Origin: an uncultured Gemmatimonadota bacterium
GTDB taxonomy: Bacteria > Gemmatimonadota > Gemmatimonadetes > Gemmatimonadales > Gemmatimonadaceae
Direction of reading: 5' to 3'
NCBI GenBank assembly: GCA_903910555.1
Contig: CAIVZZ010000008.1
Span: forward strand, 1 to 64,000
DNA: 64,000 nucleotides
Part shown: positions 3,924 through 58,243 of the stretch, one piece after another
Position numbering within the stretch: the first letter of the stretch is position 1
How the letters are laid out: the number at the start of each line of letters is the position of its first letter
Notes under the pieces: model-generated
The model's input: the letters and a program-made list of their open reading frames with translations, nothing else
What the model was told of the DNA's origin: nothing
The model's database searches: none
Translations under genes and position numbers: made by a program

Positions 3924-4072
3924 GGGACGACAGACGGCGGACGACAGACGGCGGCTGGGACAATAGACGACAGAAAGCGGCTCGGAGATTTCCTCCGGGC
4001 CGCTCTGCTTTCTACCGCCGTCTGTCGTCCACAGTCCCAACTGCCGTCCGCCGTCTGCCGTCTGCCGTCCTT
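3924..4072. repeat. Long imperfect inverted repeat of GACGGC-type units
   Basis: The whole gap between the sigma gene and the MlaF-like gene is filled by degenerate repeats of GACGACAGACGGCGG. They are followed by their inverse complement (CCGCCGTCTGTCGTCC and variants), around a small GGAGATTTCCTCC apex near 3985. The folded structure would be a hairpin of about 60-bp arms with mismatches. It could attenuate read-through or act as a processing site; no function is shown. CCGCCGTCTG copies recur at 520-550. Confidence 0.7.
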
Positions 4073-10393: not shown

Positions 10394-10407
10394 AGGTGTA
10401 CGACGAG

Positions 10408-10544
10408 TGCACTGTTAACTACTAACTGTTGGTCGGTGTTCTGTAAGAAAAATTTGTCCTGGCGGCGAACTCGCTCGACGAGGTTCGGTGCCAGGACTGA
10501 TTTTTTAACGGAACACCGACCAACAGTTCGTGGTTAACAGTTCA
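10408..10544. repeat. Nested palindromic extragenic element, copy 1
   Basis: The outer arms (10408-10441 and 10511-10544) are almost perfect inverted copies containing CTGTTAAC and AACTGTTGGTCGGTGTTC. Inner arms pair GTCCTGGC with GCCAGGAC around an apex containing GCTCGACG. Almost the whole 137-bp element would fold into one long stem. It is clearly related to the element at 51755-51896 along its full length. It lies between atpC and the next gene and may terminate or protect the atp mRNA, but no T tract follows. Confidence 0.85.
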
Positions 10545-10593
10545 CTAGCTTGATCGTCATGAGAGTGACCCTTCCTCTCTGCAACCGAGTCCA

Positions 10594-11232: not shown

Positions 11233-11260
11233 GGACGGGTGAAAAACAGTAGAGAGTTTT

Positions 11261-11416
11261 GACAACAAAAGGGATGCGTTAACAGGCGTTGGTATTTGGT
11301 TTCGAACTAACGGCGACGGGACAGGTCGGTGCGTGCGAAAATCGCACACTCGACCTGTCCCGTCGCCGTTAGTTCGCTACCAAGTAATTAATGACCGTTA
11401 ACACATCCCTTTTGTT
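11261..11416. repeat. Large extragenic palindrome between convergent genes
   Basis: Arms 11261-11328 and 11351-11416 pair over most of their length; strongly paired segments include ACAAAAGGGATG with CATCCCTTTTGT and AACTAACGGCGACGGGACAG with its complement. The apex is a small GTGCGTGCGAAAATCGCACAC hairpin. It lies between a plus-strand gene ending at 11232 and a minus-strand gene ending at 11444, so a bidirectional terminator is possible. Its layout resembles the 10408 element but its sequence is mostly different. Confidence 0.75.
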
Positions 11417-11443
11417 GTGATAGCTCACAGCTGCCCCCGCCAT

Positions 11444-25029: not shown

Positions 25030-25086
25030 CGGAGTAGTGAGTTGTCAGCGATGAGTTCGATGCGGGACTAAACAACTTGACGCACG

Positions 25087-25494
25087 ACGCGGGAGAGGAA
25101 ATTGGACGCGGGATAAGATTGGAGGGTTGAGATTTGATGTGGGGCGCGGGAAAATGACGGGTACGCCCTCGGCTCAGCGCGTGAGGCCATTGCGTGGTAC
25201 GGAACGCTCGAGGCGGAGCTCGGAGCTGTCGCAAAGGAGCGACAGTCGATGTTCGTGCAAATACGTCGGCTGCTCTTGACGACTCTCAAGAGGGCGCGAG
25301 CGAACAGTGTGAAAGCCCCGCCTCGTCAGACGCGCCGCCGCCCTCGCGGGTCCGAGTCGTAACCCCGCCGTCAATCTCATTACCCACAACTAATCCCGCG
25401 TTCGATTTCCTCTCCTGCATTCTGCGTCAGCAGGTCCTCCCGCGTCCAATTTCCTCTCCCGCGTTCTGCGGCAGCAGGTCCTCCCGCGTCCAAT
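25087..25494. repeat. Inverted and tandem repeats flanking a gene remnant
   Basis: A 27-bp sequence at 25087-25113 (beginning ACGCGGGAGAGGAAATTGG) recurs as an exact inverted copy at 25438-25464. On the right side two near-identical tandem units of about 44 bp (about 25407-25450 and 25451-25494) contain CAGCAGGTCCTCCCGCG. Shorter CGCGGGA fragments lie between. The repeats bracket the remnant described separately, which looks like the trace of a mobile or rearranged segment. The whole gap 25030-25533 has no intact gene. Confidence 0.75.
25138..25362 (+). pseudogene. Possible remnant of a four-helix-bundle protein gene
   Basis: An open frame from after a TGA at 25135 to a TAA at 25360, without a usable start codon at its 5' end. 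It encodes GSAREAIAWYGTLEAELG, then an AKERQSMFVQIRRLLLTTLKRARA helix. This resembles the C-terminal half of the four-helix-bundle proteins related to the 23S rRNA intervening-sequence protein (GSA.E...WY ... L..I..LL..L). The N-terminal helices are absent. The identification is from memory of the family pattern and is tentative. Confidence 0.4.
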
Positions 25495-51754: not shown

Positions 51755-51896
51755 AGTGAACGGTTAGCTACTAACTGTTGGTCGGTTAACCACAGTAAGA
51801 AAATTCGTCCTGGCCGTGAACGCGCTCGACGCGCTTCGGCCAGGACGAATTATTTAACCTTGGTTAACCGACCAACAGTTAGTGGTTAACAGTTCA
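51755..51896. repeat. Nested palindromic extragenic element, copy 2
   Basis: Outer arms 51755-51791 and 51861-51896 pair almost completely (CTAACTGTTGGTCGGTTAACC with its complement). Inner arms AATTCGTCCTGGCC and GGCCAGGACGAATT are exact inverses around an apex containing GCTCGACGC. The element matches copy 1 (10408-10544) along its length, including AGTAAGAAAA after the left arm. It lies between convergent genes. Confidence 0.87.
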
Positions 51897-51923
51897 CTGC
51901 TTTAGCCTTCGGCCCCGAAAGGT

Positions 51924-57370: not shown

Positions 57371-58243
57371 TTAGCTGCCAGTGGTGTTCCACTTCAGGCG
57401 TTGCTTCCGTACTCTCGGATCGGGAACGGGCACGGCGGACAGTAATGCTTGGGTGTACCCGTGCTGCGGCGAGGCATACAGCGTCTTTGCGTCGGCCAAT
57501 TCTACGATGCGCCCAAAGTACATCACGGCGACGCGCGTGGCGATCTGCTCGACCACCGCGAGATTGTGCGCGATGAACAGGTAGGTGAGGCCGCGATCGC
57601 GCTGGAGCTTCACGAGCAGTGCGAGGACCTCTGCCTGCACGATCACATCAAGGGCAGACACCGCTTCGTCGAGCACGATGAACTCCGGCTCGACTGCAAG
57701 CGCGCGGGCAATCGCGATGCGCTGGCGCTGACCGCCGGAAAACTCATGCGGAAGTTTCGTGGCGTCGCTCGCGCGCAGCCCGACTTCTTCGAGCGCACGC
57801 GCGACGCGCGCGTCGGCCTCGGCGCCTTCGGCCAGTTGATGCGCCTCGATTCCCTCGCGCACCGTGCGCCCAACGCGCATGCGCGGGTCGAGCGAGGTGT
57901 GCGGATCCTGAAAAACGATCTGCATCCGGCGCCGCAGTCTTCGGAGCGGCTCGCGTTCGAGCGCGAGCACGTCGGTTCCGTCGAAAGTCACGCGGCCCGA
58001 CGTTGGCTCGATCAACCGAAGGATCGCGCGGCCGGTTGTCGTCTTGCCGCTGCCGGATTCACCGACGAGTGCGAGTGTCTCGCCGCGTGCGATGTCGAAG
58101 CTCACGTCGTTCACGGCGACCTTTGCGGCGTGCTGCGCGCCGAAGAGTGAACGGCGCGCGGGAAATTCATGTGTGAGATGGGCAACCGAGACGAGCGTAA
58201 TCGGTCCTCGGCCCTCGGCCGTCGGTCCTCGGTCTTCCATCAT
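57371..58243 (-). CDS. Oligopeptide ABC transporter ATP-binding protein (DppF/OppF-like)
   Basis: A 290-aa ATPase of the Opp/Dpp/Nik peptide importers. Walker [13 protein letters not shown]-loop [18 protein letters not shown], signature [16 protein letters not shown] and Walker [14 protein letters not shown] are intact; a typical C-terminal region ([19 protein letters not shown]) follows. The N-terminus [15 protein letters not shown] is encoded by GAC/GGC-type degenerate repeats, so the true start may have been altered. Start overlaps the dppD-like stop. Confidence 0.92.

Follow-up and report, generated by a model that had tools for sequence, protein, structure and literature searches.

Among the described systems closest to the DNA studied here are the intervening sequences (IVS) of rRNA. 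IVS with an S23p/IVP open reading frame (ORF) occur in Leptospira, Coxiella, Xanthomonas, and Brucella, and the mobility of rRNA IVS was proposed long ago (PMC4990558 and work cited therein). In the Coxiella 23S rRNA IVS, RNase III cuts in the stem, and 7-bp repeats (GACAGAT) precede the IVP-like ORF (PMC4990558). Heptamer repeats have been reported from Cyanobacteria and Beggiatoaceae (TAACTGA; PMC4679880) and from Xanthomonas and Nostoc (GGGAATC and GGGGAYT), with at least 70 close inverted heptamer pairs per Xanthomonas genome (PMC4692102). Avd of diversity-generating retroelements is a reported homolog of PF05635 (PMC10053308), the family of the IVP genes discussed below. Two solved structures, 2GSC (XCC0516 of Xanthomonas campestris) and 2RLD, belong to proteins that this family matches. 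To our knowledge, PF05635 has no agreed function, and the origin of rRNA IVS and of heptamer repeats has so far been without explanation.

The window, that is, the whole 64-kb stretch analyzed here (contig 8, bases 1–64000, of a 3.2-Mb genome in 32 contigs), contains palindromes that belong to elements resembling rRNA IVS in having a PF05635 protein between inverted terminal repeats and a long stem, which for the window copies is a predicted stem only. These elements differ from known rRNA IVS, which lie in helices 9, 25, or 45 of the 23S rRNA, whereas the window copies lie between protein genes; they also comprise many arm families, and their gene-less derivatives are present in multiple copies. 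With the heptamer repeats they share 7-bp tandem arrays in intergenic DNA; however, PMC4679880 and PMC4692102 link no mobile element or protein to the repeats, and the link to IVP made here comes from the arrays of other genomes. Avd is alike as a PF05635 homolog whose function involves nucleic acid and a reverse transcriptase, but no reverse transcriptase gene was detected in this genome, and no template/variable repeat pair was seen in it. Our literature search, which covered few subscription papers and left preprints and many journals outside, found the Coxiella paper (PMC4990558) alone to be directly relevant to IVP with palindromes or heptamers, and no work that connects gene-less palindromes with non-rRNA IVP genes and their inverted heptamer arms. 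Within the literature searched, rRNA IVS with an IVP ORF and heptamer arrays are already known, and the joining of IVP genes outside rRNA, their arms, and gene-less palindromes appears new.

Palindromes of the window and their family

The features of the window to which we refer are the following.

3926..4062, no strand: gene-less palindrome with 7-bp units (GACGACA GACGGCG GACGACA GACGGCG ...), 137 bp
10397..10405, plus strand: outer extension TGTACGACG of copy 1, inverse of CGTCGTACA
10406..10546, no strand: copy 1 of the gene-less palindromic element (141 bp), made up of outer arms, spacers that are A-rich/T-rich, an inner stem (GTCCTGGC..GCCAGGAC), and an apex (GCTCGACG)
11247..11433, no strand: gene-less palindrome of the L097 IVP arm family, its arms matching those of the L097 IVP gene on contig 15
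25078..25473, plus strand: decaying gene-bearing element with 36-bp arms, 92% complementary and 324 bp apart
25138..25359, plus strand: IVP gene remnant, C-terminal half only, inside the 25078..25473 element
51755..51898, no strand: copy 2 of the gene-less palindromic element (144 bp)

Copies 1 and 2, which an earlier note had described as two nested palindromes of about 140 bp, are present as it said. They are 80% identical, their outer arms are 87% complementary with the inner stem nested between them, and their RNA folding energies (−95.9 kcal/mol for copy 1 and −99.7 kcal/mol for copy 2) were equaled by none of 200 dinucleotide shuffles (z −15.6 and −16.8). The inner part of the arms is either of variant A (TTAACCAAGGT) or of variant B (GTTCTGT), and the combinations AA, AB, BA, and BB all occur in the genome; copy 1 has the B variant (GTTCTGT-like) in both arms and copy 2 the A variant (TTAACCA...) in both. 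The sequence CGTCGTACA adjoins the right arm in other copies, and copy 1 has the extension on the left only. Convergent genes flank copy 2 at distances of about 17 and 25 bp. Rfam matches in the window are to tRNAs only, five genes for which are clustered on the minus strand at 268–2545, and the palindromes match no Rfam family.

The family is not limited to the two copies of the earlier note. BLAST places it at about 39 separate sites in this genome, a lower bound given that part of the candidates was scored, and it is also numerous in two congeners, G002 and G012. By size, 28 copies measure 136–146 bp, four measure 92 bp and are without the inner stem, one measures 613 bp, and the others are partial; a further copy lies on the same contig just beyond the window (C8:66596-66739). 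When the 28 medium copies are aligned, 90.3% of cells are paired versus 87.2% after shuffling, and 55 cells are changed on both sides versus a shuffled mean of 30, values reached by none of 500 shuffles in either case. Sliding the partners lowers pairing to 45% or less. Compensatory changes are strong in the inner stem, where 12 of 20 pairs are changed on both sides. With genes assigned by a rough ORF rule, convergent genes flank 15 copies, co-directional genes 12, and divergent genes two, and a stop codon is often found 5–20 bp from a copy; this distribution fits insertion behind stop codons and would also suit a side role in two-way termination. Given that the copies are about 80% alike, their spread is not very recent.

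IVP genes between inverted arms

The 613-bp copy (L061, contig 11) is the gene-bearing member of the family, which the earlier note missed together with the wide bacterial spread of its architecture. The arms of the family here enclose an ORF for a "four helix bundle protein" (23S_rRNA_IVP; PF05635, E 3.8e-31; TIGR02436, E 1.9e-31), situated between ychF and pth, and about 45–50 bp of arm are common to this copy and the gene-less ones. The element encodes IVP only, with no transposase within it. The 7-bp period in the arms of this family is weak (shuffle p 0.05).

The genome has 11 PF05635 genes (up to 12 per genome are found in this order), and long inverted repeats, with an arm sequence particular to each, surround all 11. 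A longer IVP subfamily of about 160 residues (L099–L102) likewise lies between inverted arms. Gene-less copies exist for other arm families as well, and the counts are lower bounds: about 17 for L096, several for L100, at least two for L097, and one for L093. The palindrome at 11247–11433 is a copy of the L097 type, with 31 identical bases in a row (GGTTTCGAACTAACGGCGACGGGACAGGTCG) in common with the L097 arms. The decaying element at 25078–25473 has a right arm that aligns with an arm of the IVP gene L101, and the remnant inside it is 64% identical to the L101 IVP over 50 residues (pairwise E 4e-21), although on its own it gives no Pfam or NCBIfam match. The palindrome at 3926–4062 is probably another member of the IVP-type elements; no IVP gene with arms like it was identified. 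A short run of TCGGTCC-like 7-bp units is also found close to a gene boundary at 58195–58235.

Among 18 congeners, this genome included, 12 have an orthologue of the ychF–pth IVP, 53–86% identical to the one considered here. Full arms of the present type surround it only in this genome and in G002, those of G012 match in part, and the genomes with many palindromes of the family are these same three. In G001, G005, G009, and others, the inverted arms around the ychF–pth IVP differ in sequence from these, and the palindrome family is absent. The family is therefore numerous, among congeners, only where the ychF–pth IVP has this arm type. The arm type differs among congeners at this one site, so that both arms change in concert around a gene that persists. 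We note that one weak copy of the palindrome is present in G010, a genome with no ychF-type IVP orthologue, that this counts against derivation of the palindromes from IVP elements, and that some IVP genes of G007 and G013 are without clear arms. The ychF–pth IVP is old and vertically inherited, so that it may be a resident gene whose arms are maintained and not an active parasite.

From named genomes, a scan for SIPANIAE-like proteins yielded 80 IVP loci in many phyla, 77 of them usable; given this search target, the loci do not sample the PF05635 family at random. A strict 99% inverted-repeat limit is passed by only 31 of the 77, because many arms are short. In the arms that pass, identity is 0.58 at lag 7, 0.52 at lag 14, and 0.48 at lag 21, versus a control of about 0.26–0.30. 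When all 77 loci are taken together, the best lag-7 run is elevated on either side of the gene, with lags 5, 6, and 9 flat, and in 51 of 77 the upstream lag-7 value is unmatched by any other 150-bp window of the locus. Within Gemmatimonadota, an inverted-repeat score of at least 24 is reached by 22 of 32 IVP loci versus none of 23 PIN-domain control loci from the same genomes (p 2e-7). Most sampled IVP genes across bacteria sit between inverted arms, usually 7-bp repeats. In one Nitrospira genome, most of the 10 IVP genes have visible arms particular to them. The arm units of two loci of the survey (L312 and L254) are 8 bp (GGGCAGTA) rather than 7. One locus (L115) that might have exemplified an insertion in 23S rRNA was set aside, given that the 3′ end of the 23S gene is missing after the IVP, era comes next, and the contig may be a chimera.

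Occupied and empty insertion sites

Empty counterparts of occupied sites are found in several groups. Copy 1 lies behind atpC, and G012 has the element at the same place; in G006 the intergenic region behind atpC is short, and the insertion is absent there and in most congeners. Two Nostoc plasmids have one common operon, and the site of each plasmid's IVP element is empty in the other. Among 61 Mesorhizobium genomes, 31 have a contiguous junction downstream of an acyl-CoA dehydrogenase gene and 30 a split one. Twenty split sites were read: nine hold full elements of 432–577 bp, mostly with GGCAGTA units; one holds a 322-bp element from which most of the IVP gene is deleted; eight hold gene-less inserts of 83–151 bp, mostly foldbacks of 7-bp units; and two (L302 and L303) hold an unrelated conserved palindrome (ATGCATGTCGCCCAAAAG...CGACATGCAT). 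A further locus counted as contiguous (L300) keeps a small foldback at the junction. The Mesorhizobium insertion begins at the stop codon and spares the ribosome-binding site of the next gene. As for target-site duplications, which the earlier note had proposed to look for, there is a possible 3-bp one (ATG) in one Nostoc case and none clear at the Mesorhizobium site.

IVP genes also lie within operons. On cyanobacterial plasmids, IVP elements lie between cas6 and cas4, between cas10 and cmr3, or between two ribonucleotide-reductase subunit genes, and the IVP genes of three loci (L133, L136, and L139) are within cas operons. The 23S rRNA IVP is listed among CRISPR-linked domains (PMC10910872), and insertions of this kind may be the source of that listing. 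In Devosia, Bosea, and Aquamicrobium (L180, L184, and L202), an IVP gene lies between nuoC and nuoD, with heptamer arms that differ per genus. A phage origin was rejected given that 50,697 phage records contain no IVP relatives, though the gene is frequent on cyanobacterial plasmids.

Origin of the palindromes and reach of the IVP elements

The palindromes could be bidirectional terminators or 3′-end stabilizers that are selected by the host and only seemingly mobile, the ychF–pth IVP having been inserted in one of them by chance. A G+C-rich inner stem flanked by A-runs and T-runs, the compensatory changes in the stem, and the position of about half of the classifiable copies between convergent genes, with only two between divergent genes, all agree with this explanation. 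We nevertheless think it unlikely: it does not account for inverted arms around all 11 IVP genes or for gene-less copies in several unrelated arm families, the palindrome family is absent from most congeners that have the same genes, and a terminator does not need the 31 conserved bases of the outer arm. A side role as two-way terminators may exist as a by-product that makes the insertions tolerable. The earlier note's preference for mobile elements over simple terminators is upheld to the extent that the family is dispersed and MITE-like; its suggestion of a REPIN system with a RAYT transposase fails, as we explain next.

REPINs are inverted REP pairs that a Y1 tyrosine transposase moves, and the present copies resemble them as inverted arm pairs that are extragenic and occur in tens per genome; yet the genome has no RAYT gene, and PF01797 (Y1) is absent from it and from 12 congeners searched, so that we attach almost no weight to this origin. 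Ordinary MITEs moved by a DDE transposase, with IVP as a passenger gene, would explain inverted ends, size classes of 92, 140, and 613 bp, multiple copies, and intergenic positions. The likeness to MITEs goes further, in that the copies are short and gene-less, have inverted ends in common with a gene-bearing parent, and have lost the inner gene, but the parent is without a known transposase, nearly the whole element is palindromic, and the arms differ without limit between families. Movement by a DDE enzyme seems very unlikely to us given that IVP recurs inside such arms in many phyla, that arm sequences are wholly different between elements, and that no consistent target-site duplication is seen at the Nostoc and Mesorhizobium sites. 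Reverse transcription by a resident enzyme was rejected because the genome has no PF00078 match; among relatives, PF00078 is found in nine of 61 versus IVP in 49 of 61. The lack of both PF00078 and Y1 genes makes a resident reverse transcriptase or RAYT unlikely. Integron attC sites, suggested by GTTAAC-like motifs, were dropped because the copies occur singly and have conserved arms, and because arrays of cassettes were not observed.

We regard it as probable that the window palindromes are non-autonomous, gene-less, MITE-like derivatives of IVP elements. Sequence comparisons show that a full IVP element is a PF05635/TIGR02436 four-helix-bundle gene between long inverted arms, mostly 7-bp arrays; that elements are located directly downstream of stop codons, in intergenic DNA or within operons; that orthologous sites are empty in relatives and loss of the gene can leave the arms behind as a hairpin; and that arms vary between elements, even at one orthologous site, yet match within an element. 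We infer mobility from the empty sites and the copy number. In RNA, the arms would form a long stem cut by RNase III, as measured for the Coxiella 23S rRNA IVS, and such cutting would make insertion in operons and rRNA do little harm and hence be tolerable. The IVP protein may bind the arms of its own family and aid the spread of that family in trans, with a host enzyme presumably doing the cutting and joining. The arm family of the ychF–pth IVP has multiplied to about 39 places in the genome, and arm identity is probably kept by arm-to-arm copying in the hairpin together with slippage of the 7-bp units. We know of no recognised catalytic site in IVP, which counts against the IVP-element reading. 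Under the IVP-element reading, rRNA IVS would be known members of the class.

On balance, we are inclined to extend this proposal to the whole family: PF05635 genes throughout bacteria, together with those of at least one archaeal assembly, may be the coding part of one very widespread, unrecognized class of mobile elements with inverted heptameric arms that insert directly behind stop codons, rRNA IVS being its few members inserted in rRNA, and its gene-less relics making up many of the heptamer arrays and intergenic palindromes of bacterial genomes. If true, IVP genes in cas, nuo, and ribonucleotide-reductase operons would be insertions and not functional partners, and the class would provide a natural series of states in which to examine the mobility of an element without a known nuclease. 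One class would then account for the abundant PF05635 genes, the rRNA IVS, and the heptamer repeats of several phyla.
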